46,353 nt of DNA, taken from contig MEDJ01000016.1 of assembly GCA_001724025.1 (NCBI GenBank), positions 1 through 46,353 of the forward strand, written 5' to 3'. The translations under genes were made by a program, and so were the position numbers. This stretch comes from Acidobacteria bacterium SCN 69-37. GTDB taxonomy: Bacteria > Acidobacteriota > Vicinamibacteria > Vicinamibacterales > SCN-69-37. Shown piece by piece: positions 19,095 to 46,353 of this stretch. The notes beneath the pieces are model-generated. The model worked only from the letters and a program-made list of their open reading frames with translations. It did not search any database and was not told the origin of the DNA. How positions within the stretch are numbered: position 1 is the first letter of the stretch; every line of letters starts with the position of its first letter.

Positions 19095-20429
19095 TCAGGC
19101 CTGCGCGCTCGGCGCCGACGCCTCGACGGGTGTGTGGGAATCCAGGAAGAGCCAGCACACGGCCCCGACCATGTAGATGGCCGACGAGATCATGAACGTG
19201 AGCGTCCAGTTGTCGTTCGTCCACGTGAGGATGTAGGCCACGACCGTCACGGAGAACGCGCCGGCGATGCTGCCCATCATGTTCATGGCGCCCGACACCG
19301 TTCCGGCGTAGCGGCCGCCGATGTCCATGGTGCCGGCCCACGCGGCGGGCATGATCACGTCGTTGAAGAAGCCGGCCATGCCGAGCACGAACATCGCGTA
19401 GATCGGGTGCTGGATGCCCGTGAAGATGAAGATGCAGGCCGACGCCCCGACGAACCCGCAGAGCGCCACGATCCGCCGGGCCAGCCGCACGCTGCCCACC
19501 GCCTTCGCGACACGCGGCAGCACCGCGGCCGACACCAGGCAGCCGAATCCGCCGAGCAGCAGCGGCAGGCCGGCCAGCATCGCGGTCACGAACGGCCCGA
19601 GCTGCAGGCCGCCGAACTGCACGCCGCCCTGCTGTTCGCGCAGGTACGTGGGCAGCCAGTTGATGTAGAACCACCAACCATAGGCCAGGCACATGTACTG
19701 AATCGACAACAGCCAGACCGATCGGTTCGTGAAGATCAGTTTCCAGGGGACGCCGCCGTGCGCCACGGCCACTTCGCTGGCCGGCGGGAGCAGCGCGAGT
19801 TCGGCCTTGTTGACCGACGGGTGCGTGGCGGGATCGTCACGGAACCAGCGGAAGAAGAAGAACGCCCAGACCACGCCGATGATGCCGAACAGTTCGAACA
19901 TGCGGGGCCAGGTCAGGTGCGAAATCAGCCAGACGACGATCAGGGGCGTGAACGCGCCGGCCATGCGGGTGGCGAGCCAGATCAGCGACTGCGCCCGTTC
20001 ACGCTCGTTCTTCGGCAGCCACGTCGTCAGCATGCGCGTCATGCCGGGGAAGGCCCCGGCTTCGCCGGCCCCGAACATGCCGCGGACGGCGATGAGTGAC
20101 GTGGCGCTCCACACCCAGCCGGTGGCCGCGGTGAAGAACGACCACCACAGCACGATGCGCATCAGCACGCGGCGCGGACCGACCCGGTCCGCCAGCCAGC
20201 CGCCGGGAATCTCGAAGATCGCGTACGCGTACCCGAAGATCGCCAGCGCCCAGCCCATCTGCACCCGCGTCAGGCCGAGATCCTCGGTGATGAACGGCGC
20301 GGCCTGCGAAATGGCCACGCGATCGATGTAGGTCACCACGGCCAGGATCACGGCAAAGCTCAGCGCAATCGACCGGGCACGAGTGGGAGGAGCGGAAAAG
20401 CCCCCAGGCGGGGAAACAGTAGATGCCAC
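19095..20429 (-). CDS. MFS transporter, anion:cation symporter (sugar acid/phthalate) type
   Basis: 444 aa from GTG 20429, chosen because GAGG lies just upstream; an upstream GTG at 20483 is possible. It has twelve predicted helices. The ACS-family signature VVTYIDRVAISQAAPFI in helix 1 and GYAYAIFEIPGGWLADRVGPRR in helix 2 match GudP/GarP/ExuT-like importers of hexuronates and aldonates. GEAGAFPGMTRMLTTWLPKNERERAQS is the family loop motif. It is divergent from the sugar-acid dehydratase at 20707, so import of the aldonic acid degraded by the 20707-27048 genes is likely (inference from context). Confidence 0.9.
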   Translation of the reverse strand: MASTVSPPGGFSAPPTRARSIALSFAVILAVVTYIDRVAISQAAPFITEDLGLTRVQMGWALAIFGYAYAIFEIPGGWLADRVGPRRVLMRIVLWWSFFTAATGWVWSATSLIAVRGMFGAGEAGAFPGMTRMLTTWLPKNERERAQSLIWLATRMAGAFTPLIVVWLISHLTWPRMFELFGIIGVVWAFFFFRWFRDDPATHPSVNKAELALLPPASEVAVAHGGVPWKLIFTNRSVWLLSIQYMCLAYGWWFYINWLPTYLREQQGGVQFGGLQLGPFVTAMLAGLPLLLGGFGCLVSAAVLPRVAKAVGSVRLARRIVALCGFVGASACIFIFTGIQHPIYAMFVLGMAGFFNDVIMPAAWAGTMDIGGRYAGTVSGAMNMMGSIAGAFSVTVVAYILTWTNDNWTLTFMISSAIYMVGAVCWLFLDSHTPVEASAPSAQA

Positions 20430-20706: not shown

Positions 20707-22446
20707 ATGGGTCATCAGAAGACATCAGACAAAAAAACCTATCGGTCGGCCGCATGGTTCGGAAAAGCCGACAAAGACGGCTTCATCCATCGCAGCTGGA
20801 TGCGCAACCAGGGCTATCCGGAAGACGTGTTCGACGGGCGCCCCGTCATCGGCATCTGCAACACCTTCTCCGAACTGACGCCGTGTAACGCGCACTTCCG
20901 CACCATCGCCGAGTTCGTCAAGCGTGGCGTGTGGGAGGCCGGCGGCCTGCCGGTCGAGTTTCCCGTCACGTCGCTGGGCGAATCGAACATGCGGCCCACG
21001 GCCATGCTGTTCCGCAACCTCGTCGCGATGGACGTCGAGGAATCGATTCGCGCCAATCCCGTCGACGGCGTCGTGCTGCTCTGCGGCTGCGACAAGACGA
21101 CGCCCTCGCTCATCATGGGGACGGCCAGCTGCGACATCCCCGCGCTCGTCGTCTCGGGCGGCCCGATGCTCAACGGCAAGTACCGCGGCCAGGACATCGG
21201 CTCGGGCACCGACGTGTGGCGCTTCAGCGAGGACGTGAAGGCCGGCCGGATGAGCCTGCAGGAGTTCAGCGAGGCCGAAGCGTGCATGTCGCGCTCGGCC
21301 GGTCACTGCATGGTCATGGGCACGGCCTCGACGATGGCGTCGATGGTCGAGGCGCTCGGCCTGGGCCTGCCGCAGAACGCGGCGATTCCCGCCGTCGACT
21401 CGCGGCGCAACGCCCTGGCCCACATTGCCGGCCGGCGCATCGTCGATCTCGTCCGCGACAACGTGACGATCTCGCAGATCCTCACGCGGGCCGCGTTCGA
21501 GAATGCGATTCGCGTCAATGGCGCGATCGGCGGATCCACCAATGCGGTCATCCACCTGATCGCCATCGCGCGCCGTCTCGGCGTCCCGCTGTCGCTCGAG
21601 GACTGGGATGCGTTCGGCCGCGACGTGCCGACGCTCGTCGACCTGAAGCCGTCGGGCCGCTACCTGATGGAAGACCTGTACTACGCAGGCGGCCTGCAGG
21701 GCGTCATGCGCATCCTCGGCGAACACGACCTGCTCAACCGCGACGCGCTGACCGTCAACGGCCGCACGCAGTGGGAGAACGTCAAGGACGCGCCGATCTG
21801 GAACACCGAGGTCATTCGCCCGTTCGACAACCCGGTGGTCGCGCACGGCGGCATTGCCGTGCTCTCGGGCAACCTGGCGCCGAACGGCGCCGTGCTGAAG
21901 CCGTCGGCAGCCTCGCCCGGCCTGATGCAGCACCGCGGCCGCGCCGTGGTCTTCGAGACCATCGAACACTACAAGGCCCGCATCGTCGATCCCGCGCTCG
22001 ACATCGACGCGACCTGCATCCTCGTGCTGAAGAACTGCGGGCCGAAGGGCTATCCGGGCATGGCCGAGGTCGGCAACATGGGCCTGCCGCCCAAGCTGCT
22101 GCAGGCGGGCGTGCAGGACATGGTCCGCATCTCGGACGCACGCATGAGCGGCACGGCGTACGGCACGGTCGTGCTGCACGTCTCGCCGGAGGCGGCCGTT
22201 GGCGGTCCCCTGGCGCTGGTCCAGGACGGCGACATGATCGAACTCGACGTGCCGGGCCGACGCCTGCACCTCGATGTGTCGGACGAGGAACTGGCGCGGC
22301 GACGGGCGGCCTGGCAGGCGGCGCCGGTGCCCGAGAGCGGCTGGGCGAAGCTGTACGTCGAGCACGTGCAGCAGGCCGATCAGGGCGCCGACCTGGATTT
22401 CCTGGTCGGCAAGCGCGGCGTGGAAGTCACGCGGGAATCACACTGA
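20707..22446 (+). CDS. IlvD/Edd family sugar-acid dehydratase (L-arabinonate dehydratase-like)
   Basis: 579-aa dehydratase converting an aldonate to its 2-keto-3-deoxy form. Length and motifs fit the sugar-acid branch: RSWMRNQGYPEDVFDGRPVI, then CNAHF, CGCDKTTP and GHCMVMGTAST. These give Cys60, Cys128 and Cys201 as the probable [2Fe-2S] ligands, the spacing known from Rhizobium L-arabinonate dehydratase. NGAIGGSTNAVIH and RMSGTAYGTVVLHVSPEA complete the active site. Dihydroxyacid dehydratase (IlvD) and phosphogluconate dehydratase (Edd) are less likely because of the N-terminal signature and the neighbours: SDR, FAH-fold hydrolase and GlcD/GlcF follow on the same strand. The exact sugar (arabinonate, xylonate, fuconate or similar) is undetermined. 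Confidence 0.92.
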   Translation: MGHQKTSDKKTYRSAAWFGKADKDGFIHRSWMRNQGYPEDVFDGRPVIGICNTFSELTPCNAHFRTIAEFVKRGVWEAGGLPVEFPVTSLGESNMRPTAMLFRNLVAMDVEESIRANPVDGVVLLCGCDKTTPSLIMGTASCDIPALVVSGGPMLNGKYRGQDIGSGTDVWRFSEDVKAGRMSLQEFSEAEACMSRSAGHCMVMGTASTMASMVEALGLGLPQNAAIPAVDSRRNALAHIAGRRIVDLVRDNVTISQILTRAAFENAIRVNGAIGGSTNAVIHLIAIARRLGVPLSLEDWDAFGRDVPTLVDLKPSGRYLMEDLYYAGGLQGVMRILGEHDLLNRDALTVNGRTQWENVKDAPIWNTEVIRPFDNPVVAHGGIAVLSGNLAPNGAVLKPSAASPGLMQHRGRAVVFETIEHYKARIVDPALDIDATCILVLKNCGPKGYPGMAEVGNMGLPPKLLQAGVQDMVRISDARMSGTAYGTVVLHVSPEAAVGGPLALVQDGDMIELDVPGRRLHLDVSDEELARRRAAWQAAPVPESGWAKLYVEHVQQADQGADLDFLVGKRGVEVTRESH

Positions 22447-22556: not shown

Positions 22557-23309
22557 GTGCACACGTTTGATTTGAATGGCCGCGTGGCGGTCGTCACCGG
22601 AGCGGCTCAGGGATTCGGTCGCGCCATCACCGAACGCTTCCTGAAGTCCGGGGCTGCCGTGGCGATGTGGGACTTCGACGCCGCTGAACTCGACAAGACC
22701 GCCAAGGAAGTCTCGAGCCTCGGGCGCGTCCTGCCCGTGCGCGTCGACGTCTCCGATCTGGACGCGGTCAACGCGGCCACCGCCGAGACACTCGGGGCGC
22801 TGAAGCAGATCGACATCCTGGTCGGCAACGCGGGCATCGCGGGACCGAACCACAAGATCTGGGACTACCCCATCGACGAGTGGCGCAAGGTCATCGAGAT
22901 CAACCTCTTCGGCATCTACTACACGAACCGCGCGGTAGTGCCGCACATGATCGAGCGCAACTACGGCCGGATCATCAACATCGCGTCGGTCGCCGGGAAG
23001 GAAGGCAATCCGAACGCCTCGGCCTACAGTGCCTCGAAGGCCGCGGTCATCGCCTTCACCAAGTCGCTCGGCAAGGAACTGGCCGACAAGAACATCGCCG
23101 CCAACGTCGTCACGCCCGCCGCGGCCAAGACGCGCATCTTCGACCAGATGACGCCCGAGTTCCACAAGTTCATGCTGTCGAAGATCCCGCGCGGCCGCTT
23201 CCTGCAGATCGAGGAGCTGGCGTCGATGGTGGCCTGGCTCGCCTCCGAGGAGAACTCGTTCTCCACCGGATCGGTCTTCGACATCAGCGGAGGACGATCG
23301 ACGTATTAG
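22557..23309 (+). CDS. SDR family dehydrogenase, probable 2-keto-3-deoxy-aldonate 4-dehydrogenase
   Basis: 250 aa from GTG 22557, with GAGGAG about 9 bases upstream. Cofactor site TGAAQGFG (about 15-22), NAG in VGNAGIAGPNHK, catalytic Ser in NIASVAGKEG and Tyr/Lys in YSASKAA; the C-terminus ends FDISGGRSTY. Between an aldonate dehydratase and an FAH-fold hydrolase, the expected job is NAD-dependent oxidation of the C4 hydroxyl of the 2-keto-3-deoxy acid to a 2,4-diketo acid, as in the LRA4-type or L-2-keto-3-deoxypentonate 4-dehydrogenase routes. That role is inferred from gene order; the sequence alone says only SDR. Confidence 0.85.
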   Translation: MHTFDLNGRVAVVTGAAQGFGRAITERFLKSGAAVAMWDFDAAELDKTAKEVSSLGRVLPVRVDVSDLDAVNAATAETLGALKQIDILVGNAGIAGPNHKIWDYPIDEWRKVIEINLFGIYYTNRAVVPHMIERNYGRIINIASVAGKEGNPNASAYSASKAAVIAFTKSLGKELADKNIAANVVTPAAAKTRIFDQMTPEFHKFMLSKIPRGRFLQIEELASMVAWLASEENSFSTGSVFDISGGRSTY

Positions 23310-23398: not shown

Positions 23399-24247
23399 AT
23401 GAGATTGCTGCGTTACGGACAGCCCGGCCAGGAAAAGCCGGGCATCCTCGACAACACGGGTGCGCTGCGTGATTTGAGCGGCGTGGTGCCGGACATTGCC
23501 GGCGAGGTGCTCCTGCCGGACGGCCTGGCCCGCCTGCGGGCGCTCGACCTGACCACGCTGCCGAAGGTCGAGGGGGCGCCGCGTATCGGACCGTGCGTCG
23601 GCCGGGTGGGCAAGTTCATCTGCATCGGCCTGAACTACTCGGATCACGCGGCCGAGTCGAACATGCCGGTCCCGACCGAGCCGATCCTGTTCATGAAGGC
23701 CACGTCGGCGATCTCGGGTCCGAACGACGACATCGTCATCCCGAAGGGATCGCAGAAGACCGACTGGGAAGTCGAGCTCGGCATCGTCATCGGCCAGGAG
23801 GCCCGGTACGTCTCCGAAGCCGACGCGCTCGCACACGTCGCCGGCTACTGCACGGTCCACGACGTGTCGGAACGCGCGTTCCAGCTCGAAATGGGCGGCC
23901 AGTGGGTGAAGGGCAAGAGTGCCGACACGTTCGGCCCCATCGGCCCGTGGCTCGTGACGGCCGACGCCGTGCCGAACTGGAACCAGCTCGGCCTGTGGCT
24001 CGAGATCGACGGCAAGCGCTACCAGAACGGGACGACGAGCACGATGATCTTCGGGGTGCCCTACCTCGTGAGCTACATCAGCCAGTTCATGAGCCTGCAG
24101 CCGGGCGACATCATCACCACGGGCACGCCCCCCGGCGTGGGCATGGGCCAGAAGCCGCCGGTGTATCTGCAGGCGGGCAGCGTCGTGCGCCTCGGGGTCG
24201 AGGGGCTCGGCGAACAGCAGCAGCGCACCGTCGCCTGGCAGGGGTGA
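23399..24247 (+). CDS. Fumarylacetoacetate hydrolase family protein, probable 2,4-diketo-3-deoxy-aldonate hydrolase
   Basis: 282 aa; ATG 23399 with AAGGGA upstream. The FAH fold is clear: FICIGLNYSDHAAESNMPVP, PILFMKATSAISGPNDDIVIP, DWEVELGIVIG (metal-binding Glu residues), HDVSERAFQLE, GKSADTFGPIGPWLV and GDIITTGTPPGVGMG. Members with this signature include 2,4-diketo-3-deoxy-L-fuconate hydrolase, which cleaves to pyruvate and lactate, and 5-hydroxy-2,4-dioxopentanoate hydrolase, which gives pyruvate and glycolate. The SDR and dehydratase upstream and the GlcD/GlcF oxidase downstream favour one of these over fumarylacetoacetase or ureidoglycolate lyase. Confidence 0.9.
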   Translation: MRLLRYGQPGQEKPGILDNTGALRDLSGVVPDIAGEVLLPDGLARLRALDLTTLPKVEGAPRIGPCVGRVGKFICIGLNYSDHAAESNMPVPTEPILFMKATSAISGPNDDIVIPKGSQKTDWEVELGIVIGQEARYVSEADALAHVAGYCTVHDVSERAFQLEMGGQWVKGKSADTFGPIGPWLVTADAVPNWNQLGLWLEIDGKRYQNGTTSTMIFGVPYLVSYISQFMSLQPGDIITTGTPPGVGMGQKPPVYLQAGSVVRLGVEGLGEQQQRTVAWQG

Positions 24248-24278: not shown

Positions 24279-24302
24279 CCTCCGGGGCGTGGGCCCCGGA
24301 GG
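24279..24302. repeat. Hairpin after the hydrolase gene
   Basis: CCTCCGGGGC, GTGG, GCCCCGGAGG: a perfect 10-bp stem and 4-nt loop starting 31 bases after the stop codon. No T-tract follows, so it may be a REP-type element or an RNA-stabilising hairpin rather than a full terminator. Confidence 0.65.
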
Positions 24303-24353
24303 ACGCGCCAGAGGGTGAAGCCCCCGGCACGTCCGAACGTCAGAAGTGTTGAT

Positions 24354-25736
24354 GTGGCACTGAACGATTCTCTCCTCACCGCCCTGACGGCCGTCGTCGG
24401 TTCCGATCGATTGCTGACGGCCGCCGACGATCTCATTCCGTACTCGTTCGACGGGACGGCCGCCATCCGGGTGCGGCCCGGCGCCGTGGTGTTCCCGCTG
24501 ACGACCGACGAAGTCGCGGCGTGCGTACGCGCGGCCGCCGAGGCCGGCGTCCCGATCGTCACGCGCGGATCGGGTACGGGCCTGAGCGGCGGCAGCGTCG
24601 CCGCGCCCGAGGCACTCGTGCTCTGCCTCGCGCGGATGAACCGCATCCTCGAGGTCGACGCCGAGAACCTGACGATGCGCGCGCAGGCCGGTGCGGTCAC
24701 GATGAAGATCGACGAGGCCGCGGCACGGCACGGCCTGCTCTACCCACCCGATCCCGGCTCGATGCGCATCAGCACCATCGGCGGGAACGTGGCCGAGAAC
24801 TCCGGCGGCCTGCGCGGCCTGAAGTACGGCGTCACACGCGATTACGTGATGGCCCTCGAGGTCGTCCTGGCCGACGGTCGCATCACGCGGTTCGGTTCGG
24901 CGTGCGTGAAGGACGTGGCCGGCTACTCACTGAAGGATCTGTTCGTCGGCTCCGAGGGCACGCTCGGGATCATCACCGAGGTCCTGATCAAGCTCGTCCC
25001 CAAGCCGGCGGCCCGACGGACGATGCTGGCCCTGTTCGACACGATGGAATCGGCCGCCAGCGCCGTGTCGGCCATCATCGCGGCGAAAATCATTCCCTGC
25101 ACGCTCGAGTTCCTCGACCGCACGACCGCGAGCTGCGTCGAGGACTACGCGAAGGTCGGGCTGCCCACCGACTGCGAGGCCGTCCTGCTGATGGAAACCG
25201 ACGGCCACCCGGCCGCCGTGGCCGACGAGGCCGAACGGATGGCGGCCATTGCCGCCGCGCAGGGCGCCCGCGAGGTGCGCACCGCGAAGGACGACGCCGA
25301 GGCCACGAACCTGGCGTCCGCGCGGCGCAACGCGTTTTCCGCGCTCGCGCGCCGGCGGCCGACGACCATCCTCGAAGACGTCACCGTGCCGCGGAACCGG
25401 CTGGCGGAAATGGTCACGTTCATCGCGGAGACGGCCGCGCGGCACCACCTGCAGGTCGGCACGTTCGGCCACATGGGCGACGGCAACCTGCACCCGACGT
25501 TCCTCACCGACGAGCGCGACGAGGCCGAGATGGCCCGCGTCCACCATGCGCTCGACGAGATCGTCACCAAGACACTGGAAGTGGGCGGCACCATCACCGG
25601 CGAACACGGCGTGGGCCTGGCCAAGAAGCCGTGGCTGCGCCAGCAGATGGGCGACCACAGTTACGAACTGATGCGCGAGGTGAAGCGCGCCCTCGATCCG
25701 AAGGGCCTGCTCAATCCCGGCAAGATTTTCGATTGA
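24354..25736 (+). CDS. glcD: FAD-linked glycolate/lactate oxidase subunit GlcD-like
   Basis: 460 aa from GTG 24354 (GTG 24315 is an alternative start but lies in a repeat). The FAD-binding type 4 domain spans about residues 30-210 with RGSGTGLSGGSV and PPDPGSMRISTIGGNVAENSGG. The C-terminal FAD-oxidase domain has GHMGDGNLHPTF (His and Asp region) and GEHGVGLAKKPWL. GlcD/DLD-type flavoproteins oxidise glycolate or D-lactate and pass electrons through an iron-sulphur partner. The partner glcF-like gene starts 7 bases after this stop. No glcE is present. Context suggests it oxidises the glycolate or lactate released by the upstream hydrolase. Confidence 0.9.
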   Translation: MALNDSLLTALTAVVGSDRLLTAADDLIPYSFDGTAAIRVRPGAVVFPLTTDEVAACVRAAAEAGVPIVTRGSGTGLSGGSVAAPEALVLCLARMNRILEVDAENLTMRAQAGAVTMKIDEAAARHGLLYPPDPGSMRISTIGGNVAENSGGLRGLKYGVTRDYVMALEVVLADGRITRFGSACVKDVAGYSLKDLFVGSEGTLGIITEVLIKLVPKPAARRTMLALFDTMESAASAVSAIIAAKIIPCTLEFLDRTTASCVEDYAKVGLPTDCEAVLLMETDGHPAAVADEAERMAAIAAAQGAREVRTAKDDAEATNLASARRNAFSALARRRPTTILEDVTVPRNRLAEMVTFIAETAARHHLQVGTFGHMGDGNLHPTFLTDERDEAEMARVHHALDEIVTKTLEVGGTITGEHGVGLAKKPWLRQQMGDHSYELMREVKRALDPKGLLNPGKIFD

Positions 25737-25743
25737 GCCTGCC

Positions 25744-27048
25744 ATGGCGAACGTCACACTGAAGACCATCGATTACGCGATCCTCCAGCAGTGCATGCAC
25801 TGCGGGATGTGCCTGCCGACCTGTCCGACGTACGACGAGACCACGCACGAACGCAACAGCCCGCGCGGCCGCATCGCCCTGATGCGCGCGATCGCGGACG
25901 GCGATCTCGAGGTCAATCGCACGTTTGCCGACGAGATGAGCTACTGCCTCGGCTGCCTGGCGTGCGAGACCGCGTGCCCGGCCGGCGTGCAGTACGGCAA
26001 GCTGTTCGAAACGGCGCGCGCCGACATCGAGCGATCCGGCATCAACGACAACCTCTCGCGTGATTTCTGGCGCACGCTCACGCTGAAGATCCTGTTCCAG
26101 CGGCCGTCGCTCCTGCGGGCGGCCGGGGCGGGCCTGCGCGTCTACCAGCGCACGGGACTCGAGTCCCTGGTGCGACGCCTGGGCCTGACGCGCCTGCTGC
26201 CGCCGAGCCTGCGGCGCGTCGAACCACAGTCGCCGCCCATCGCCCCGAAGTTCTCGAACGCCCTGATCCGGCCGACCGAGGTGCCGACGGGGACGCCGCG
26301 ATTCCGCGTGGCACTGCTGACCGGCTGCGTGCAGGACCTCGTCTTCTCGGACATCAACCGCGACACGGCCGACGCCCTGCTCGCCAACGGCTGCGTCGTC
26401 GAAACGCCGCCGGTGCAGCCGTGCTGCGGCTCCCTGCACGCCCACAACGGCGAGACCAAACTGGCGGAAGCTCTCGCACGTCGCATGATCGATCTGTTCC
26501 CGCCCGCGAAGTACGACGCGATCATCTCGAACGCGGGCGGCTGCGGATCGCACCTGCGGCACTACGGCCCGCTGCTCGCCGACGACCCGGCCTACCGCGA
26601 ACGCGCGCAGGCCTGGGACCGGAAGCTGCGCGACGTCCACGAGTGGCTCGTGCAGATCGGCGCGCGCGCGCCCACCGCCAGCCCGTTCGAGTCGCCGGTC
26701 TCGCTCACCTACCACGAGTCGTGTCACCTCGTGCACGGCCAGAAAATCACGAAGCAGCCGCGGCAGCTGCTCCGCATGATTCCCGGCGTGACGCTCACCG
26801 AACTGCCCGAGGCGTCGTGGTGCTGCGGCAGCGCTGGCGTCTACACGATCACGCAGCCCGAGCAGGCGACGAAGCTGCAGGAGCGCAAGACCGCCAACAT
26901 CATCGCGACGAAGGCCTCGTGCGTCGCCACGGCCAACCCGGGCTGCCACCTGCAGGTGCTGCGCGGGCTCGACGCCGCAGGGGCGAAGATCGAAGTAGCG
27001 CACCCGGTTTCACTGCTGGCCCGGGCGTATCGACGCGAGACGAAATAG
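25744..27048 (+). CDS. glcF: Iron-sulphur subunit GlcF-like of glycolate/lactate oxidase
   Basis: 434 aa. Two 4Fe-4S ferredoxin motifs are complete: Cys17, 20, 23 and 27 (CMHCGMCLPTCP) and Cys68, 71, 74 and 78 (CLGCLACETACP). Two CCG (DUF224-type) domains follow, with PCCGSLHAHNGE and WCCGSAGVYTI plus YHESCHLVHGQK. This is the standard GlcF/GlpC/LutA-like layout, carrying electrons from GlcD to the quinone pool at the membrane. It starts 7 bases after glcD and is probably translationally coupled. GlcF is favoured over LutA because of the adjacent FAD oxidase. Confidence 0.93.
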   Translation: MANVTLKTIDYAILQQCMHCGMCLPTCPTYDETTHERNSPRGRIALMRAIADGDLEVNRTFADEMSYCLGCLACETACPAGVQYGKLFETARADIERSGINDNLSRDFWRTLTLKILFQRPSLLRAAGAGLRVYQRTGLESLVRRLGLTRLLPPSLRRVEPQSPPIAPKFSNALIRPTEVPTGTPRFRVALLTGCVQDLVFSDINRDTADALLANGCVVETPPVQPCCGSLHAHNGETKLAEALARRMIDLFPPAKYDAIISNAGGCGSHLRHYGPLLADDPAYRERAQAWDRKLRDVHEWLVQIGARAPTASPFESPVSLTYHESCHLVHGQKITKQPRQLLRMIPGVTLTELPEASWCCGSAGVYTITQPEQATKLQERKTANIIATKASCVATANPGCHLQVLRGLDAAGAKIEVAHPVSLLARAYRRETK

Positions 27049-37837: not shown

Positions 37838-37841
37838 CGCG

Positions 37842-39705: not shown

Positions 39706-40656
39706 TCAGTTGCCGCCGCCGCGCGCGCCGCCCGGGGCACCGGCCGCGCCGGGACCACCGCCACGACGTCCGCCGCCGCCCATGCGGCCGGCCGGCCGCT
39801 CGTGCATCAGCGAATCGATCGGTCGCTTGGCCGCCCACGCGATCGCGCGCAGCAGCATCGGCTGCACCTGCGGGTGCGAGAAGTTCTCGTACACGTGTCC
39901 CTGCATCCAGACGAATGCGCGGAACGGCTGCTGGCCGCCGAGCGACCGGAAGAACGGCCGTTCATAGGTCCAGATCTGCGGCACCTGGGTCCCGGCAAAG
40001 CCCTTCGCGCTCGGCGTGTCGGCAATCTTCGCCGAGGCGAGGACCGTGACGGCCGGATCGTCGCTGTTCGGCCGCTTCGCCCAGGTCATCTTGAAGAACG
40101 CCTCGTCGGTGATCGTGAAGTTCGTCATGCCCTGCATGATCGGGTCGTTCGGCGCCTCGATCGTGTACGGCACTTCGGCCCGCAGCGTGAAGTTCGTCTC
40201 GCCGTGGCGCTTCGCGCCGCCGAAGATCGTGGACCACCACACCTCGTCATCGGCGCAGATGGCGTCGTGCGCGCCCACCAGCCCGCCGCCGCGCGCGAGG
40301 AAGTCCTCGAGCGCCTGGCGCTCGCGCAGCGTCATGTAGCCGGCGTCGCCCTTGTACATCACGATCACGTCCGTGTCCGCGAGCTGCTCGGCCGACGGGA
40401 AGCTCAGCCCGCCGTCGACGATGGCCCCGCGCGCGGTGAGCAGCTTGCTCCAGTCCGCCAGGAACTGCGGGTAATCGTGCTCGCCGTCTCCATGCGTCTT
40501 CAGCCCGCCACGGATGTAAATCCGAATCGGCGGCGTCTGCGCCTGCACGGCCGCCGCCTGGGCGGGGGCGCCCTGCGGCGGCGCCTGCGCCGCCGCCATC
40601 ATCGGCATCCCCAGCGCCATAGCGAGCGCCGCACACATTACTGTCCGAACCTTCAT
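39706..40656 (-). CDS. Exported ThuA-domain protein
   Basis: 316 aa. ATG 40656 is chosen because AGGAGG lies 6 bases upstream; ATG 40662 would sit directly on it. The Sec signal MKVRTVMCAALAMALGMPMMAAAQA is followed by a ThuA (glutamine-amidotransferase-like) domain: YIRGGLKTHGDGEHDYPQFLADWSKLL, DTDVIVMYKGDAGYMT, FLARGGGLVGAHDA, and PQIWTYERPFFRSLGGQQPFRAFVWMQGHVYENFSHPQVQPMLLRAIAWAAKR. ThuA-like proteins are tied to disaccharide and glycoside oxidation; catalytic function is uncertain. The C-terminal tail is Gly/Arg-rich (GGGGRRGGGPGAAGAPGG). Last gene of a three-gene unit, 25 bases after the dehydrogenase. Confidence 0.9.
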   Translation of the reverse strand: MKVRTVMCAALAMALGMPMMAAAQAPPQGAPAQAAAVQAQTPPIRIYIRGGLKTHGDGEHDYPQFLADWSKLLTARGAIVDGGLSFPSAEQLADTDVIVMYKGDAGYMTLRERQALEDFLARGGGLVGAHDAICADDEVWWSTIFGGAKRHGETNFTLRAEVPYTIEAPNDPIMQGMTNFTITDEAFFKMTWAKRPNSDDPAVTVLASAKIADTPSAKGFAGTQVPQIWTYERPFFRSLGGQQPFRAFVWMQGHVYENFSHPQVQPMLLRAIAWAAKRPIDSLMHERPAGRMGGGGRRGGGPGAAGAPGGARGGGN

Positions 40657-40681
40657 GTCCATCCTCCTGCGTCGTTCCTGG

Positions 40682-43297
40682 CTACTGACCACCGCGGCCG
40701 GCACCGGCGCCACCCGCCCGGCCGGCACCACCGCCGCGCCCGGCCATCCCCATCAATTCCTCGTTCGTCCACGGCTGCTTGCGGGTCTTCGTCAGCCCGC
40801 GAATCTCCTGCACCGACTCGGCCGTGACGGGCGAGGCGGTGTTCCCCCACTCGCGCCGCACGTACGTCAACACGTTCGCCACCTGCTCGTCGTCGAGCGC
40901 CGCCAGCGGCGGCATCAGGCCGATCGAGCCTTCCTTTCCGCCCAGGACGATGCGGATGGGAATCGCGTCCGTACCGGTCAGGAGCGCCGAACCCGCCAGC
41001 GGCGGCGCGATCCGGTCGGCCCCCTGGCCGTTCTCCTGGTGACACGCGATGCAGAGGTTCTTGTAGAGCTCGCCCCCGGCGGCGAATCGCTTCTGCTCTT
41101 CGGGCGTCAGCGGCGCCACCGTCACGACCGGCGCAGGCTTGCCCGCCCAATCGAGCTTGGCGACCACGGCCCTGGCCGCATCGGCCAGCGTGTCCGTGCC
41201 CGAGGCCAAAGCCGTGAGCGCCGTCGGTTCGGCGGCCAGCGAGACGCGAGCCGCGCCCGCCGCCCCGCCACGACCGCCGCGTCCGGCCGCGGGTCCACCG
41301 CCCGCACGACCGCGTCCCGCGCCGGCTGCCGGCAATCCGGCATCGAGCCCCTGGAGCAGCGCCTGGCGGATCGCCTCGGGCGTCGAGGCGTCGCCGACGA
41401 CGGTCAGCATGCTCTGCACCTGCGCCACGTTCCCCGTGCGCGCCACGGTGGCCGCCAGCATCGAGACGCCCTCGGCCGGTGCCACGCGTCCCTGGGCCTG
41501 GAGCAGACGCGAGAGCACCTCGCCCTCGATGCTGCGCAGGCCGCTGATCGCCGCGTCGACGGTCAGCGGGTCGTCGCCGTACCGCTCCAGGATCGTCACG
41601 GCCGGCGGCACACGGGCGGCAATCGGCAACTCGCCGATGGACGCCGCCAGCTGCCGACGGACGATCCAGTTCGGATCGTCGATGAGGCCGAGCACCTTCG
41701 CCGTCAGCGGGTGATTCGGCTGACCGATCCACTTCTCGGCCCACCGGATGCCCCAGGCGCGCACGTCGGGGTGCGCGTCACCGAGCGCGGTCTGCACCGT
41801 CTCCACGTCGAGCGCGCCGAGCCCGTCGAGCACGCCCATCGCGTGGAGCTTCACGCGCCAGTCGGCCGACGTCATCAGGGCCTTCACCGCCGGCACGACC
41901 GACGTATCCTGCCGCTGGACGAGCAACTGCTGCGCCGTGTCGCGCCACCAGCCGTTCGGGTGCGAGAGGTACTGGACGAGTCCGGCCGGCGTTTCCTTCG
42001 ACAGCTGCGGCTTCCGATCGCGCTGCGTCGTGTCGTGGGTCAGCCGCCAGATCCGGCCGCGCCCGATCGGCATCGCGAGCTCGTTGTCGCGGATGTACTC
42101 GGAGAGGAACTCCGTGTGATACGTCAGGTCCTGCACGACGCCGCGGTACATGTCGACGATGTAGATCGTGCCGTCGGGACCGGACGTCAGGCTCACCGGC
42201 CGCAGGCGCTCGTCGGTCGAGGCGAAGATCTCGCCGCGCTCGTACGTGTTCTTCGCAGTCATCCGGCCCGAGCCGTCGTCGACCATCGTCAGGCGGTGCA
42301 CGAGGTTCGTGGCCGAGTCGGTGATGAACACGTCACCCTGCGCGTCCTTCGGCAGGCGATCCCCACGGTAGACGAGCGGCGTGCCCGTGCTCTGGAGGAT
42401 GCGCGACGTGTCGTCCTCGCGGAAGAACTGATCGCGATACCCGCGGTTGACGCCGCGCGTCGGCCGGATCGGCCAGGCCACGGCGTCCTCGAGCGAGATC
42501 ACCGGCTCGTAGAGCCCGCGCGTGCGCGTGATGTTCGGGTTGCGCATGAAATAGCGCGCCAGCGTGAAGTCGACGAACAGCGGCGCGTTGTTGACGTTCC
42601 GGTACAGTCGTCCCGCATCGTCGATCGACCCGCCCCACTGTCCGCGATTGAGCGTGGGGACGATCTCGTACTTGCCGGCGTCGAAGCGCAGGTGCCAGTC
42701 GTGCTCGGACGTGTAGATCCAGTTGTCGAGCCCCCAGATGAGGCTGTTCGCGTTGTGCTCGATGTTGGCTTCGCGGCGGCCGTAGCTGTCGGCGATGAGC
42801 TCCTTCGCGTCCATCTTGAGGTCGCCGTCAGTGTCGCGCATCAGCCACACCATCGGCGGCTCGCCCACGAGCACCCCGCCATCCACCGGCTTGATCGCCC
42901 GCGGCAGCACGAGCCCGTCGGTGAACACCGTCCGCTTGTCCATCACCCCGTCGTCGTTGAGGTCCTCGAGGACGACGAGCCGGCAGATCGGCTCGCGCGA
43001 GTCCTCCATGGCCGGGTTCATGGCAAAGCCCGGCATCTCGAGCACCCACATCCGGCCGTCGGCGTCGAACTCCGCGAGAATCGGATCGATGACCATCGGT
43101 TCCTTGGCCACCAGTTCCACCCGATAGCCGGGCGGCACGGCGATGGTCTTCAGGGACTCCTCGGCCGAGAGCGCCGGGGATCCCGCGTCTTCCGGTACCG
43201 GCGTCGGCGGCCAGGCCTGCTGCCCGTGCACGACGCCGTAGGTCACGGCTGCCACGACGGCCACACCGGCCGCCACTGCCCAGGTTCTTGCGCGCAT
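40682..43297 (-). CDS. Exported PVC-type dehydrogenase with HEAT repeats and cytochrome c
   Basis: 871 aa from ATG 43297 (GTG 43306 and TTG 43315 are alternatives). An N-terminal membrane/signal segment is followed by a propeller dehydrogenase domain (VPPGYRVELVAKEPMV, FDADGRMWVLEMPGFAMN, DLNDDGVMDKR, EHNANSLIWGLDNWIY, SLTSGPDGTIYIVDMYRGV). A HEAT-like helical region comes next (HPNGWWRDTAQQLLVQR, DPNWIVRRQLAASIGEL). A Gly/Arg-rich linker then leads to a cytochrome c domain with haem motif CIACH (near 41045-41060) and GLMPPL for the Met ligand. The C-terminus is again Gly/Arg-rich. Probably a periplasmic sugar or alcohol dehydrogenase delivering electrons to the respiratory chain. Paralogue of the gene at 1-2407; co-directional with the PQQ-type dehydrogenase and ThuA genes. 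Confidence 0.9.
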   Translation of the reverse strand: MRARTWAVAAGVAVVAAVTYGVVHGQQAWPPTPVPEDAGSPALSAEESLKTIAVPPGYRVELVAKEPMVIDPILAEFDADGRMWVLEMPGFAMNPAMEDSREPICRLVVLEDLNDDGVMDKRTVFTDGLVLPRAIKPVDGGVLVGEPPMVWLMRDTDGDLKMDAKELIADSYGRREANIEHNANSLIWGLDNWIYTSEHDWHLRFDAGKYEIVPTLNRGQWGGSIDDAGRLYRNVNNAPLFVDFTLARYFMRNPNITRTRGLYEPVISLEDAVAWPIRPTRGVNRGYRDQFFREDDTSRILQSTGTPLVYRGDRLPKDAQGDVFITDSATNLVHRLTMVDDGSGRMTAKNTYERGEIFASTDERLRPVSLTSGPDGTIYIVDMYRGVVQDLTYHTEFLSEYIRDNELAMPIGRGRIWRLTHDTTQRDRKPQLSKETPAGLVQYLSHPNGWWRDTAQQLLVQRQDTSVVPAVKALMTSADWRVKLHAMGVLDGLGALDVETVQTALGDAHPDVRAWGIRWAEKWIGQPNHPLTAKVLGLIDDPNWIVRRQLAASIGELPIAARVPPAVTILERYGDDPLTVDAAISGLRSIEGEVLSRLLQAQGRVAPAEGVSMLAATVARTGNVAQVQSMLTVVGDASTPEAIRQALLQGLDAGLPAAGAGRGRAGGGPAAGRGGRGGAAGAARVSLAAEPTALTALASGTDTLADAARAVVAKLDWAGKPAPVVTVAPLTPEEQKRFAAGGELYKNLCIACHQENGQGADRIAPPLAGSALLTGTDAIPIRIVLGGKEGSIGLMPPLAALDDEQVANVLTYVRREWGNTASPVTAESVQEIRGLTKTRKQPWTNEELMGMAGRGGGAGRAGGAGAGRGGQ

Positions 43298-43345
43298 ACA
43301 CTTCACTCTCGTCAACGGACACCCATGTGATGGCGGTCAGATACG

Positions 43346-43377
43346 GCAACGCCGGGCCCTGTGCGACCCGGCGTTGC
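43346..43377 (-). terminator. Hairpin between the sugar dehydrogenase and PVC-type dehydrogenase genes
   Basis: GCAACGCCGGG (43346-43356) and CCCGGCGTTGC (43367-43377) form a perfect 11-bp stem with a 10-nt loop, five bases after the stop of the upstream minus-strand gene. With no T-run it may act as a partial terminator or RNA stabiliser that sets unequal expression in the operon. Confidence 0.65.
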
Positions 43378-43382
43378 GGCAG

Positions 43383-44993
43383 TTACGGTTGCGGAACCAG
43401 TCGGATGACCCGACCCGGCGTCGAGGCCGAGAGCGGCACGCCGGGAATCCCCGTGGGATTCTGCAGGGCGATATAGAGCAGGCCATCGGGTCCCTGCGTG
43501 ATGTCACGCACGCGCCCGAGCTGGTCGAAGATGATCTCCTGGTGCGTGACCTTGCCGTCGGCCACCTCGAGACGCTCCATGCGCTGGCCCACCAGCCCGC
43601 CGACGAACAGGCTCGTGTTCTTCCACGCCGGATAGCGATCGCTCGTGACGAACGAGATGCCGGCCGTGGCCATCGACGGCGTGTAGTAGATGATCGGATC
43701 GATCATCCCCGGCGCCGATGACACCATGCCGGCCTGCGAGGCCTTCGTGGCCACGCCCCAGCCGTAGTTGGCGCCCTTCTCGATGATGTTGATCTCGTCG
43801 GCCGAGTTCGGCCCGTGCTCGGACTCCCACAGCTGGCCGGTGACCGGATCCCAGGCCAGGCCCTGCGGATTGCGGTGCCCCAGCGACCAGATCGTCGGCG
43901 GCACGCCTGCCTGTCCGACGAACGGGTTGTCGGCCACGGCCGAGCCGTCCTCGTTGACGCGATGAATCTTGCCGAGCGGACTCTTCATGTCCTGCGCGTT
44001 CGGAATCGATCCCCGCTCGCCGATCGAATAGAAGAGGTGTCCCTCGCGGTCCCAGATGAAACGCAGGCCGTAGTGCGCCCCGCTGCCGGTGTAGAGCGAC
44101 GGATCGGCTCGGAAGATGAACTGCTGATCGGTCCACTCGTTGTTCGCGTTGATCTTGCCGCGTACCACCACGGTCATGGCCGGCACGGCCGGCCCGCGGC
44201 CGCGTCCCTGCGGGGCGCCGGCGTTCCCGGCCGGGGCCGCCTGCGGCGCCGGAGCCACGTAGCCCGGCTGACGCTCGCTGTAGGCGAGATAGATCCAGCC
44301 GTTCTGCGCGTAGTTCGGGTGCGCGATGACGTCGAGCATGCCGCCGTCCTGCACCGCGTGCACCTCGGGCGTGCCCTTCACCGGCTCGGACAGCTTGCCA
44401 TTGGCGAAGATCCGCAGCCGCCCGGGCCGCTCGGTGATCAGCAGCCGGCCGTCGGGCAGGTACGCCAGGCCGAACGGGGTCTCGAGGCCATCGGTCACCA
44501 GTTCGACCTTCACCGTCTGCTTCTCGGTCTTGAGAATCAGCCCGTCCGGGTTCTCGACGAACTCGGGCCGCGGCCGGAGGTTGCCGACCTGCGTCCTGAT
44601 GTAGTTGAGCAGCGACCAGATCTGGTCGCTGCTCAGCATCTGGCCGAACCCTTCCATCTCCGTGTTCGGAATGCCGTCCCGGATCGTCTGGACGATGAAG
44701 TCGTCGCTCGTGCTCTTGAGCCACTGCTCGTCGAACAACGAGACCGCGCGTCCGCCCGCCGCATCGTTCCCATGACACCCGGAACAGTTCTGCGCGTAGA
44801 GCTCCTGCGCGGGATTGCCCCGGCCCCGGCCCGGGGCCACGCCCTGTGCGGCACCGGGACCGCCCGGACGCCCCCCGCCGACCGCCGCGCCCGGCGCCTG
44901 CGGCGCCTGACCGCGCGGCGCCGTCGCCATTACCGTCAGGAGAAACGCACCAAAGACCAATGCCGTGGTGCCGGTTGTCTTGCCTGGAGTCAT
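43383..44993 (-). CDS. Exported PQQ-type soluble sugar dehydrogenase with N-terminal cytochrome c
   Basis: 536 aa from ATG 44993, with GAGAGG upstream. A signal or membrane segment is followed by a Gly/Arg-rich linker and a cytochrome c domain with haem motif CSGCH (ELYAQNCSGCHGNDAAGG). It ends at QMLSSDQIWSLLNYIRTQ. The rest is a six-bladed GSDH-type propeller as in aldose sugar dehydrogenase: LETPFGLAYLPDGRLLITERPGRLRIF, GGMLDVIAHPNYAQNGWIYLAYS, IWSLGHRNPQGLAWDPVTGQLWESEHGPNSADEINIIEKGANYGW. A second Gly/Arg-rich insert (PQGRGRGPAVPA) lies between blades. Having haem on the same chain allows direct electron hand-off. First gene of the unit continuing to 39706. Confidence 0.92.
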   Translation of the reverse strand: MTPGKTTGTTALVFGAFLLTVMATAPRGQAPQAPGAAVGGGRPGGPGAAQGVAPGRGRGNPAQELYAQNCSGCHGNDAAGGRAVSLFDEQWLKSTSDDFIVQTIRDGIPNTEMEGFGQMLSSDQIWSLLNYIRTQVGNLRPRPEFVENPDGLILKTEKQTVKVELVTDGLETPFGLAYLPDGRLLITERPGRLRIFANGKLSEPVKGTPEVHAVQDGGMLDVIAHPNYAQNGWIYLAYSERQPGYVAPAPQAAPAGNAGAPQGRGRGPAVPAMTVVVRGKINANNEWTDQQFIFRADPSLYTGSGAHYGLRFIWDREGHLFYSIGERGSIPNAQDMKSPLGKIHRVNEDGSAVADNPFVGQAGVPPTIWSLGHRNPQGLAWDPVTGQLWESEHGPNSADEINIIEKGANYGWGVATKASQAGMVSSAPGMIDPIIYYTPSMATAGISFVTSDRYPAWKNTSLFVGGLVGQRMERLEVADGKVTHQEIIFDQLGRVRDITQGPDGLLYIALQNPTGIPGVPLSASTPGRVIRLVPQP

Positions 44994-45297: not shown

Positions 45298-46353
45298 ATG
45301 AAACGGACGGTTATCACCCTGCTCGGCGCGGCGGCCCTGGTCGCCGGCGTCTCTGCCACGCCTGCCCCTGCGCCGGCGCAGGCCGCACGCACGCTCGACA
45401 TCTACATTCCGGACACCGAAGGCGGCACGGCCACGCTGTTCGTCACGCCGACGGGCGAGTCCGTCCTGATCGACACCGGATTTCCCGGCGATCGCGATCA
45501 CGACCGCATCATGGAAGTGATCAAGGCCGCGGGCGTGACCCGGATCGATCACCTGATCAGCACGCACTATCACCTCGACCACATCGGTGGCGTCCAGGCC
45601 CTGGCGGCGGCCATGCCGATCGCGCACTATATCGACCACGGCCCGTCGATCGAAGAGCGCGAGCAGGTGGCGGGCTTCCAGGCGGCCTACGCCGAGCTGT
45701 ACGGCAAGGCGAAGCACACCGTCGTCAAGCCGGGCGACAAGCTTTCGGTGGCCGGACTCGACTGGACCATCGTCTCGGCCGCCAGAGACACCATCGCGTC
45801 GGCGCTGCCCGGTGCCGGCCAGGACAACGCCGCCGCCTGCGCCGCGACCGAGCGCAAGCCGCTGCCGACCACCGATCCGGAGAATGCCGCGTCTGTCGGC
45901 AGCGTCATCCAGTTCGGGAAGTTCCGGACGGTGCACCTGGGCGATCTCTACTGGGCCAAGGAACTCGACTTGGTGTGTCCGCAGAACAAGCTCGGCACGG
46001 TCGACCTGTACCTCGTCACGCACCACGGGCAGAACCAGTCGAACTCGCCCGCGATGGTGCAGGGCCTCCGGCCGCGCGTGGCCGCCATGCAGAACGGCAC
46101 GCGCAAGGGCGGCGCGCCCGAGACGATCCGCACGATTCTCTCGTCCCCCGGTCTCGAGGATCTGTGGCAGCTGCACTGGTCGTACGGCGGGCAGCTCGAG
46201 CTGAACGCGCCCGGGCTGTTCATTGCCAACATCGAGGACAACCAGACGATTGCCAACGTCCTGACCGCGCCGCCGCCCGCGCCGCGCGGCGGCGGCGCGG
46301 GTCGTCAGGGCGCCCCGGCCGGCGCTCGCGGCGCCGGGCCGGCGCCGCAGCCC
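45298..46353 (+). CDS. Exported metallo-beta-lactamase-fold hydrolase (C-terminus cut by window edge)
   Basis: At least 352 codons from ATG 45298 (GGGGGAGG upstream), open to the last base. Sec signal MKRTVITLLGAAALVAGVSA, then the MBL fold: LFVTPTGESVLIDTGFPGDRDHD, metal motif STHYHLDHIGG (HxHxDH type), HLGDLYWAKELDLVCPQNKLGTVDLYLVTHHGQNQSN. The domain style is that of ComEC/competence-like or YhfI-type MBL proteins rather than class B beta-lactamases, so antibiotic hydrolysis is not implied. A C-terminal Gly/Arg/Ala-rich tail (PRGGGAGRQGAPAGARGAG) begins around residue 329. It is divergent from the sugar dehydrogenase unit. The substrate is unknown. Confidence 0.9.
   Translation, partial: MKRTVITLLGAAALVAGVSATPAPAPAQAARTLDIYIPDTEGGTATLFVTPTGESVLIDTGFPGDRDHDRIMEVIKAAGVTRIDHLISTHYHLDHIGGVQALAAAMPIAHYIDHGPSIEEREQVAGFQAAYAELYGKAKHTVVKPGDKLSVAGLDWTIVSAARDTIASALPGAGQDNAAACAATERKPLPTTDPENAASVGSVIQFGKFRTVHLGDLYWAKELDLVCPQNKLGTVDLYLVTHHGQNQSNSPAMVQGLRPRVAAMQNGTRKGGAPETIRTILSSPGLEDLWQLHWSYGGQLELNAPGLFIANIEDNQTIANVLTAPPPAPRGGGAGRQGAPAGARGAGPAPQP

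Follow-up and report, generated by a model that had tools for sequence, protein, structure and literature searches.

The question raised by this locus is what is oxidized by a short run of haem-linked proteins encoded near one end of a contig from Acidobacteria bacterium SCN 69-37, and what becomes of the product. The stretch of DNA that was analyzed, hereafter the window, is the entire contig (MEDJ01000016.1; 46,353 nucleotides). The explanation to which we incline, with some reserve, is that these genes provide the initial, periplasmic steps of an aldose pathway of the non-phosphorylative kind (Route III).

The oxidation module and its GSDH protein

Three genes lie side by side on the minus strand, encoding a GSDH propeller with an N-terminal cytochrome c (43383..44993), a PVC-type protein (40682..43297) and a ThuA-domain protein (39706..40656; PF06283, E 5.1e-25; 89.4 bits against a cut-off of 33.4), the first and the last with hydrophobic N-termini. 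Their domain scores are far beyond chance, and the arrangement described in a sequence-only reading of this DNA, including its short gaps and its haem c motifs (CSGCH in the GSDH protein and CIACH in the PVC protein), was borne out. With the start codons preferred from sequence, the gap between the GSDH and PVC genes is 85 nt. The gap between the PVC and ThuA genes is 25 nt if the latter starts at the ATG at 40656, which follows AGGAGG, and 31 nt if it starts two codons later.

The hairpin described in the first of these gaps is real: the two arms of a 13-bp inverted repeat (43346-43358 and 43365-43377) enclose a 6-nt loop, and the 86-nt stretch around it folds at -37.6 kcal/mol (z -2.5). Its candidacy as a terminator was rejected because it has no T tract, because a terminator scan reported nothing at 43346-43377, and because such a stem is absent from the same gap in five relatives (L081, L082, L083, L087 and L091).

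The GSDH protein was matched by PF07995 (E 1.9e-107; 359.8 bits against a gathering score of 25) and by Cytochrome_CBB3 (E 4.4e-12), with CSGCH at residue 70, and was matched to structure 7cdy with an E of 1.4e-67. Residues His307, Arg374, Asn375, Arg494 and Arg496 align with His144, Arg228, Asn229, Arg406 and Arg408 of sGDH, the last two of which we take to be PQQ-contact positions. Among eight module GSDH sequences the first four of these catalytic or PQQ-contact positions do not vary, and seven of the sequences retain the fifth. Catalytic roles for His144, Arg228 and Asn229 of sGDH are described in PMC6881810, and an engineered fusion of Asd with cytochrome b562 is reported to transfer electrons from PQQ to haem (PMC12011955). 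A cytochrome c assembly family is also matched twice in the genome. With five checked positions kept and a haem c motif of its own, the protein would fit the earlier suggestion of periplasmic oxidation with intramolecular electron transfer, and it is proposed to be an aldose C1 dehydrogenase.

The propeller and its catalytic positions are shared with the sGDH/Asd family (Acinetobacter sGDH 1cq1, E. coli Asd 2g8s, 7cdy and the Pyrobaculum-type 3a9g). Unlike those enzymes, the window GSDH has a natural N-terminal cytochrome c fusion, is linked to a cluster for aldonate catabolism in several genomes, and belongs to a genome in which PqqC was not found; the GSDH of one relative, L087, was called without a cytochrome domain. 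The fungal PQQ pyranose dehydrogenases of family AA12 (Coprinopsis, Trichoderma) are likewise sugar-oxidizing PQQ propellers, with a fused cytochrome in Coprinopsis, but they carry haem b instead of haem c, and the descriptions at hand mention no linked catabolic cluster.

Two further parts of the locus had been missed by the sequence-only reading. One, the fourth partner that recurs, is an MBL-fold hydrolase gene at 45298..46353 on the plus strand, divergent from the three module genes, which encodes a hydrophobic N-terminus and runs off the contig end. The other is a cluster at 17043-27048, which lies 12.7 kb from the module with other genes between. The nearest relative of the MBL protein is a ComEC-type MBL domain and not a known lactonase, which rules against assigning it as a lactonase by fold; no recognized lactonase was found among eight cluster proteins scanned. 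The MBL protein is nevertheless carried here as a candidate lactonase.

The PVC-type protein

The same reading had counted two dehydrogenases; the GSDH protein fits that description, and for the PVC protein the assignment is putative. The latter comprises a DUF7133 propeller (E 9.1e-89; 298.9 bits against a cut-off of 27), HEAT_2 repeats and a C-terminal Cytochrom_C domain (E 8.3e-9) with CIACH at residue 749, and it scores 173.3 bits with TIGR02604 (cut-off 122.2). Compared by hhalign, DUF7133 is similar to the propellers of PQQ sugar dehydrogenases (probability 94%, E 1e-7), and the PVC propeller is distantly related to that of GSDH. When the module-type PVC proteins alone were compared with GSDH, the match was local, spanning 67 columns of the final blades (probability 78.5%), and ambiguous in the middle. 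Locating the DUF7133 active site by profile alignment was abandoned, the His and Arg-Asn positions of GSDH not being matchable with confidence. Matching EHxxxxLxWGxDNWIY of DUF7133 by eye to the His144 strand of sGDH offers an idea only. In a low-confidence structure model, the 13 best Foldseek chains were of sGDH/Asd type (11) or AA12 (2), with TM-scores of 0.27-0.45; a search of viral contigs for DUF7133 relatives that might add depth to the structure alignment found none.

It is possible, if the less probable case, that the PVC protein is a glycoside-cleaving enzyme and not a dehydrogenase, freeing the aldose on which GSDH would act, and this would be compatible with the explanation we favor. 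Lac161_ORF7, a TIGR02604 protein with the same DUF7133/TIGR02604, HEAT and cytochrome c architecture, is reported to have released glucose from lactose when produced in E. coli, with a Km of 1.8 mM (PMC5342196), and such chemistry would be compatible with the acidic and aromatic residues that do not vary in DUF7133 (E130, W138, D141 and N142 in A4). Against this, the report was the one biochemical study of PVC-type cytochromes found in the literature, no repeat of it was found, and its printed kcat/Km of 7.3e4 disagrees with 13.2/1.8 mM (about 7.3e3); the resemblance of DUF7133 to sugar dehydrogenases also counts against it. For the module-type members, unlike Lac161_ORF7, the literature search returned no function.

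The aldonate-type cluster and its linkage to the module

The cluster at 17043-27048 encodes, on the plus strand except for the transporter, a NIPSNAP-domain protein (17043..17477), SDR1, which is gluconate-5-dehydrogenase/KduD-like (17581..18360), an MFS transporter (19095..20351, minus strand), an IlvD/Edd dehydratase (20800..22446), SDR2, a candidate 2-keto-3-deoxyaldonate 4-dehydrogenase (22584..23309), an FAH hydrolase (23399..24247), a GlcD-like FAD oxidase subunit (24354..25736) and a GlcF-like Fe-S subunit (25744..27048). The best NCBIfam match of the transporter is the D-galactonate transporter subfamily, at 225 bits and under the cut-off of 395. The dehydratase scores 907 with the subfamily model NF004784 (cut-off 539) and lies near L-arabinonate dehydratase, the model for which gave 843.3, under its cut-off of 882. 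The FAH protein retains His83 and Glu86, and its nearest solved structure is the L-2,4-diketo-3-deoxyrhamnonate hydrolase 8gsr (E 2.7e-100); because it scores 423.2 with the curated equivalog NF053535, below the cut-off of 500, it is classed on sequence as a relative and not a certified member.

This content resembles the Route III pathway described for Herbaspirillum huttiense, in which an aldonate dehydratase, an SDR and an FAH hydrolase lead to pyruvate and glycolate or lactate, the release of the latter by SDR and FAH enzymes being published (PMC6336799). In that account the first enzyme is an aldose 1-dehydrogenase of EC 1.1.1 and the genes often cluster with those of ABC-type transporters, whereas the pathway proposed for the window would have a periplasmic haem-linked first enzyme and an MFS carrier.

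Linkage of the two gene sets was examined among GSDH loci of the class, divided by tblastn identity into 13 module-like loci (at least about 45%), seven less similar cytochrome-fused loci (44% or less) and 40 controls drawn from the weaker matches, a split that was fixed after the neighbourhoods of the first 20 loci had been seen. Around the module-like loci were found PVC (eight loci), ThuA (seven), MBL (six), SDR1 (five), aldose 1-epimerase (four, one a self-hit), FAH, MFS and GlcD (three each), and ILVD, SDR2, GlcF and NIPSNAP (two each); five of the 13 had fewer than two partners. The seven less similar loci had no partner of any kind, and the 40 controls had one PVC and nothing else, so that two partners occurred together in none of these controls, nor in any of 60 further ones. 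The PVC of L084 is 37% identical and looks like another subclade.

Among the matches listed, 80 loci come from named genomes; 75 had no partner, two had one and three had at least two, namely Novosphingobium piscinae (L160), an Opitutales MAG (L173) and L161, which is L095 again. The co-location of GSDH, PVC and ThuA recurs in other genomes, and in several relatives, N. piscinae and the Opitutales MAG the GSDH gene stands beside PVC, ThuA, MBL or aldose 1-epimerase together with homologues of the cluster, in an order that varies from locus to locus. The MFS and GlcD matches of L160 and L173 are just 38-41% identical. FAH at 70% identity was absent from four of the nine module genomes of the class (G042, G043, G191 and G192), and in G092 the FAH gene was found alone, with none of the remaining cluster genes near it.

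In a GSDH tree, the smallest clade with all ten labelled rows has 18 rows (support 77); two wider ones, with 25 and 29 rows (support 87 and 90), hold the same ten, and the label takes five changes over the tree. A label-shuffle test, in which the ten were compared only with the five rows that have one partner, gave no significant result (64 of 500 shuffles were as low), and Fisher values for the linkage serve as description only. L159, L163 and L164 fall within the same GSDH clade with other neighbours. The tree was built without L091 (GSDH too short), L068, and L158, L161 and L166, which were taken as L086, L095 and L131 again.

Most of the recurring partners, namely an epimerase, an aldonate-type dehydratase and FAH, point to a free aldose oxidized at C1, as far as gene content can tell. 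The sequence-only reading had instead proposed that a glycoside is oxidized stepwise in the periplasm, which would mean that the two haem dehydrogenases and ThuA act on it (e.g. at C3) and not mainly on a free aldose. We consider this unlikely as the main function. Sets of 3-keto-disaccharide hydrolase, ThuA and Gfo/Idh genes are keto-glycoside routes. A ThuA gene adjoins the module, and in two related genomes, L095 and L096, the full set comes after the module, with genes for a 3-keto-disaccharide hydrolase (PF06439), a Gfo/Idh protein and a second ThuA. ThuA and PVC recur together, and elsewhere in this genome, which holds 20 DUF7133/PVC-type matches (19 over the cut-off, some genes being split in two), they are fused in a single 1206-aa protein. 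On contig C13, two close paralogues of the PVC protein are encoded beside genes that by sequence are of Gfo/Idh and TIM-barrel type, and Pfam confirms one such pair. Gfo/Idh genes were counted at five of the 13 module-like loci, three of these being search-profile seeds, versus five of the 40 controls.

However, the 3-keto-disaccharide hydrolase occurs at only two of the 13 module-like loci and was found neither in the window, which differs in this from the keto-glycoside sets, nor at 18 loci of its own genome, whereas the partners indicative of C1 oxidation recur over a wider range of loci and in different phyla. Because of the arrangement in L095 and L096, a glycoside step upstream of aldose oxidation is possible.

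Incomplete oxidation is known from acetic acid bacteria, and the module might similarly oxidize sugar outside the cell for energy or acidification, the acid not being imported. L081, L083, L088 and L089 carry front-end genes, or GSDH by itself, and no catabolic cluster in the stretch covered (L081 and L083 being short contigs), yet the repeated linkage to a transporter, a dehydratase, FAH and GlcD/GlcF makes this reading very unlikely.

Cofactor supply and the proposed pathway

The search for PQQ synthesis covered two of the Pqq proteins, PqqC and PqqE. PqqC had no match in this genome, which is rated 100% complete. Across the class, 19 of 193 genomes scored over the cut-off of the PqqC model, and one of the nine module genomes of the class did so (G043). 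Nothing exceeded the PqqE cut-off here, a model that was weak in all 14 control genomes and over its cut-off in none of them. The PqqU signature (aromatic 99, Arg304 and Arg365) was complete in none of eight candidate TonB receptor genes (nine matches, 23-35% identity), which is a weak test. With PqqC not found, the idea that GSDH is the enzyme of a PQQ producer was rejected, and PQQ would therefore have to be scavenged. The sequence-only reading had named missing PQQ synthesis genes together with a lack of sugar activity as counting against it; half of this came out, PqqC not being found, and it is not fatal because many bacteria use imported PQQ, synthesis being encoded by only 23% of PqqU-bearing bacteria according to PMC12124388. 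That GSDH is instead an apo-protein here, or serves in binding or sensing, would accord with these negative results for PqqC, PqqE and PqqU and is about as improbable as oxidation without import, given the catalytic positions kept across module sequences and how common PQQ scavenging is reported to be (PMC12124388).

In the favored Route III explanation, the GSDH propeller, with PQQ acquired by scavenging, would oxidize C1 of a free periplasmic aldose. The likeliest substrates would be pentoses (e.g. L-arabinose) or 6-deoxyhexoses (e.g. L-rhamnose or L-fucose). From PQQ, electrons would move to the fused haem c and then into the respiratory chain. The aldonolactone would open spontaneously or through the MBL-fold protein, and aldose 1-epimerase may supply the right anomer in some relatives. 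The MFS carrier would import the aldonate, to be dehydrated by the IlvD/Edd protein, oxidized by an SDR and cleaved by FAH to pyruvate and glycolate or lactate, which GlcD/GlcF would oxidize; homology places these enzymes in the scheme, and their specificities are predicted. PVC and ThuA may serve the same substrate stream, either by releasing the aldose from a glycoside, perhaps via a keto-glycoside, or in a second oxidation. It is plausible that the outer oxidation genes and the inner aldonate genes form a new combination of known parts, and not a new kind of system.

A more far-reaching version, which we regard as doubtful, is that a quinohaemoprotein front end for Route III exists in at least three phyla, mostly in bacteria that lack PqqC. 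In it, the sGDH-cytochrome c fusion and the DUF7133 haem propeller would work one after the other on a glycoside and on the aldose freed from it. DUF7133 would then be a sugar-active redox or glycoside-cleaving enzyme, possibly working via a keto-glycoside with ThuA. If true, this would provide natural examples of the sGDH-cytochrome c fusions that have been built artificially in biosensor work, and a sugar pathway that begins with a step relying on a cofactor obtained by scavenging. It would also assign to the DUF7133/PVC-type cytochromes, a family without an agreed function, a role and a class of substrates that could be tested.

Module genes and the quinoprotein active site

The three genes recognized in the sequence-only reading are real and lie on the minus strand where it had placed them, and their named Pfam domains all exceed the cut-offs in a profile search. 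The GSDH gene (43383-44993) encodes a protein of 536 aa in which a PF07995 propeller follows a cytochrome c domain (CSGCH at residue 70). In the 871-aa PVC-type protein (40682-43297), DUF7133 is combined with HEAT repeats and with a cytochrome c at the C-terminus (CIACH at residue 749). The ThuA protein (39706-40656; 316 aa) matches PF06283. That observation was thus confirmed, and its interpretation, stepwise periplasmic glycoside oxidation by two fused haem c dehydrogenases and ThuA, is partly supported and is revised below. Two features were new: an MBL-fold gene, divergent from the module, that extends from 45298 past the end of the contig (which is exactly the window), and a cluster at 17043-27048, ~12.7 kb from the module, which encodes NIPSNAP, an SDR, an MFS carrier, an IlvD/Edd dehydratase, a second SDR, an FAH hydrolase, GlcD and GlcF.

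The GSDH, PVC, ThuA and MBL proteins each have a hydrophobic N-terminal stretch (best 12-residue mean 2.2-2.6), whereas two cytosolic comparison proteins have none (1.1 and 0.7 by the same measure); export of all four is therefore likely.

GSDH residues His307, Arg374, Asn375, Arg494 and Arg496 align with His144, Arg228, Asn229, Arg406 and Arg408 of sGDH, the last two of which we take to be PQQ contacts. Among eight module sequences the first four positions are invariant and Arg496 is kept in seven; in a wider set (n = 16) the five are kept in 15, 16, 14, 16 and 15 sequences, respectively. His144 of sGDH is described as the base, and Arg228 and Asn229 as lying on the quinone side (PMC6881810). 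In an engineered Asd-cytochrome b562, the fused haem is reported to receive electrons from PQQ (PMC12011955). The organism's own genome contains two matches to the cytochrome c assembly family PF01578.

Elsewhere in the window, several models of TetR-type regulators hit a 423-aa protein (15685-16956, plus strand) in two distinct regions, which makes it a tandem double TetR; by eye, the N-terminus of a protein at another examined locus (L239, 17229-18497) is very similar. Genes for ETF alpha and ETF-ubiquinone oxidoreductase (36875-39509, plus strand) overlap by ~100 nt as called, and an ETF-beta-like gene was seen by eye at 31774-32532.

Linkage of the module and its partners across genomes

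The GSDH protein, used as a query at E 1e-60, matched in 62 of 193 genomes of the class. Twenty loci around the better matches and 40 control loci around weaker ones were scanned with identical queries for PVC, ThuA, MBL, aldose 1-epimerase and the cluster proteins. Across 13 loci (tblastn identity at least ~45%), PVC was found in 8, ThuA in 7, MBL in 6, SDR1 in 5, epimerase in 4 (one a self-hit), FAH, MFS and GlcD in 3 each, and ILVD, SDR2, GlcF and NIPSNAP in 2 each. At least two partners were present in eight of these module-like loci and fewer in five. The remaining 7 of the 20 had no partner of any kind, and the 40 controls yielded a single PVC and no other partner.

Public named genomes were represented by the best 80 loci of a longer list. 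Within the first 20, at least two partners occurred in L160, L161 and L173, of which L161 is a class locus (L095) seen again; one locus (L158) had only an epimerase, another (L177) only NIPSNAP, and 15 had no partner, as had the other 60. L160, from Novosphingobium piscinae KCTC 42194, carries an epimerase (PF01263, E 6.2e-76) and an IlvD/Edd dehydratase besides its scan matches. L173, from an Opitutales MAG, carries a partial PVC protein, FAH, MFS, IlvD/Edd dehydratase, epimerase, GlcD and GlcF, together with a ThuA-domain protein of another kind. Some partners in both are distant, with MFS and GlcD at 38-41% identity. Since the L173 GSDH groups among acidobacterial rows of the propeller tree, transfer, or contamination of the MAG, possibly lies behind it.

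The partner set is largely kept while gene order varies: GSDH-PVC-epimerase-ThuA (L087), GSDH-MBL-ThuA-PVC (L095 and L096) or GSDH-epimerase-MBL-ThuA (L090). When 136 GSDH propellers were placed in a tree, the ten rows with at least two partners fell inside an 18-row clade and none among the 118 rows outside it, with clade support moderate and the locus grouping partly set after the neighborhoods had been seen. For these reasons, and because shuffling the labels of 15 rows gave no significant result, tree p values were given no weight; the case for linkage relies on the contrast with the 40 and 60 other loci.

FAH homologs of at least 70% identity were found in 6 of the 193 genomes (G000, the organism's own, with G095, G093, G092, G040 and G094), five of which also have a module-like GSDH. 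The two share one contig in G000, G093, G040 and G094; in G095, of the same genus, the cluster is intact on a different contig, with the MFS gene absent from the stretch seen. This distribution agrees in part with a link between GSDH and the cluster; against it, no FAH at this identity was found in four of the nine genomes that carry the module (G042, G043, G191 and G192). An aldose 1-epimerase homolog (44%) lies elsewhere in the organism's own genome, outside the module.

In two alphaproteobacterial MAGs of the same GSDH clade (L163, L164), the cytochrome-fused GSDH gene has a different neighborhood, downstream of a pyridoxal-phosphate aminotransferase-like gene and another shared gene (by eye). 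At L085, an enolase-superfamily gene of mandelate-racemase type (9511-10710), another type of dehydratase for sugar acids, is immediately upstream of the cytochrome-fused GSDH gene. The GSDH gene of G042 (L091, 8122-9505) is in two separate pieces, through breakage or assembly error.

A proposed aldonate route and its supply of PQQ

Oxidation by GSDH would yield an aldonolactone, and the cluster would then provide a carrier, dehydratase, SDR and FAH hydrolase for the resulting aldonate; GlcD/GlcF could burn the glycolate or lactate released. The MFS protein has its top NCBIfam match in the D-galactonate transporter subfamily but scores below the cut-off of that model. The dehydratase resembles L-arabinonate dehydratase, scoring 843 bits where the equivalog cut-off is 882; its solved relatives include 5j83 and 9evv, with the dihydroxyacid dehydratase 8ej0 slightly better. 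The FAH hydrolase is near L-2,4-diketo-3-deoxyrhamnonate hydrolase (8gsr, E 2.7e-100; next structure 2.8e-56; 423 bits against a cut-off of 500), and its His83 and Glu86 have the same numbering as the two catalytic residues of an enzyme from Herbaspirillum. A Herbaspirillum SDR-plus-FAH system is reported to convert 2-keto-3-deoxypentonate to glycolate and 2-keto-3-deoxyfuconate to lactate (PMC6336799). The dehydratase type and the glycolate-oxidase-like pair favor a pentose as the putative substrate, with a 6-deoxyhexose nearly as likely.

Every part of this system belongs to a known family; among the matches listed in the open-access literature, no report was found that connects a cluster for such non-phosphorylative (Route III) aldonate degradation with a haem-linked periplasmic quinoprotein.

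A profile search of the organism's own genome, rated 100% complete, gave no match to PqqC, and its PqqE matches are far under the cut-off (63 bits vs 381). The PqqC model works in this class, as it exceeds its cut-off in 19 of 193 genomes; none of the 14 genomes listed for the family to which the window belongs has PqqC. Among the nine genomes that carry the module (G000, G095, G094, G043, G040, G093, G042, G191 and G192), only G043 has PqqC over the cut-off, and G191 has a weak match. PqqC was not over the cut-off in any of the four genomes behind the named loci L160, L173, L161 and L159, although L159 is not a module locus, L161 is the G191 record again and the L173 genome is only 2.1 Mb. 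A PqqU-type importer was not recognized: none of the eight TonB-receptor genes considered as candidates (nine matches at 23-35% identity) shows the full signature of three residues, which is a weak test.

The sequence-only reading had held that a lack of PQQ synthesis genes together with a lack of sugar activity would count against it. The first half of this was borne out for PqqC, but the idea survives, since only 23% of PqqU-bearing bacteria are reported to encode PQQ synthesis, acidobacterial PqqU is reported only in Vicinamibacteria, and own synthesis or diffusion is suggested for the rest (PMC12124388).

Roles of the PVC-type and ThuA proteins

In a profile comparison, DUF7133 and the GSDH propeller are remotely related (hhalign 94%, E 1e-7, 18 sequences); the module-type PVC proteins alone gave a local match (78.5% over 67 columns) in the last blades. 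For a low-confidence DUF7133 model (pLDDT 55), the 13 best Foldseek chains were eleven of sGDH/Asd type and two of AA12 type, with poor superpositions (TM 0.27-0.45). Yet for Lac161_ORF7, the one assayed DUF7133 family member found, the reported activity is release of glucose from lactose, with a printed kcat/Km inconsistent with its own kcat and Km (PMC5342196); no other DUF7133 function was found among the matches listed in the open-access literature.

The organism's own genome (G000, 4.4 Mb) has an expansion of these families, with 20 DUF7133 and 11 ThuA matches, some from genes split in two. One contig (C7) encodes a ThuA-DUF7133-cytochrome c fusion in a single 1206-aa protein (L102, 7280-10900). 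Another (C13; L104 and L105) has three close PVC paralogs (47-49% identity) with Gfo/Idh, xylose-isomerase-like TIM barrel, UxaC and enolase-superfamily genes in their neighborhood, which suggests a uronate-linked version. A second DUF7133 and cytochrome c gene, of another subclade, lies at the edge of the window (2-2407, minus strand), near a Gfo/Idh-type gene (4434-5762).

At L095 (7839-10899) and L096 (3-2995), genes for a 3-keto-disaccharide hydrolase, a second ThuA and a Gfo/Idh protein directly follow the module PVC gene. The hydrolase occurs in 2 of the 13 module-like loci vs 0 of 40 controls, and was not found in the window or in 18 own-genome loci; Gfo/Idh genes occur in 5 of 13 (three of them profile seeds) vs 5 of 40. 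Taken with the propeller kinship, Lac161_ORF7 and the paralog neighborhoods, the L095 and L096 genes suggest that PVC and ThuA probably act on sugars, and make a keto-glycoside step ahead of GSDH a live possibility; the PVC-type protein is no more than a candidate dehydrogenase. The system is of moderate interest because DUF7133 and the substrate become testable in a cultured strain.
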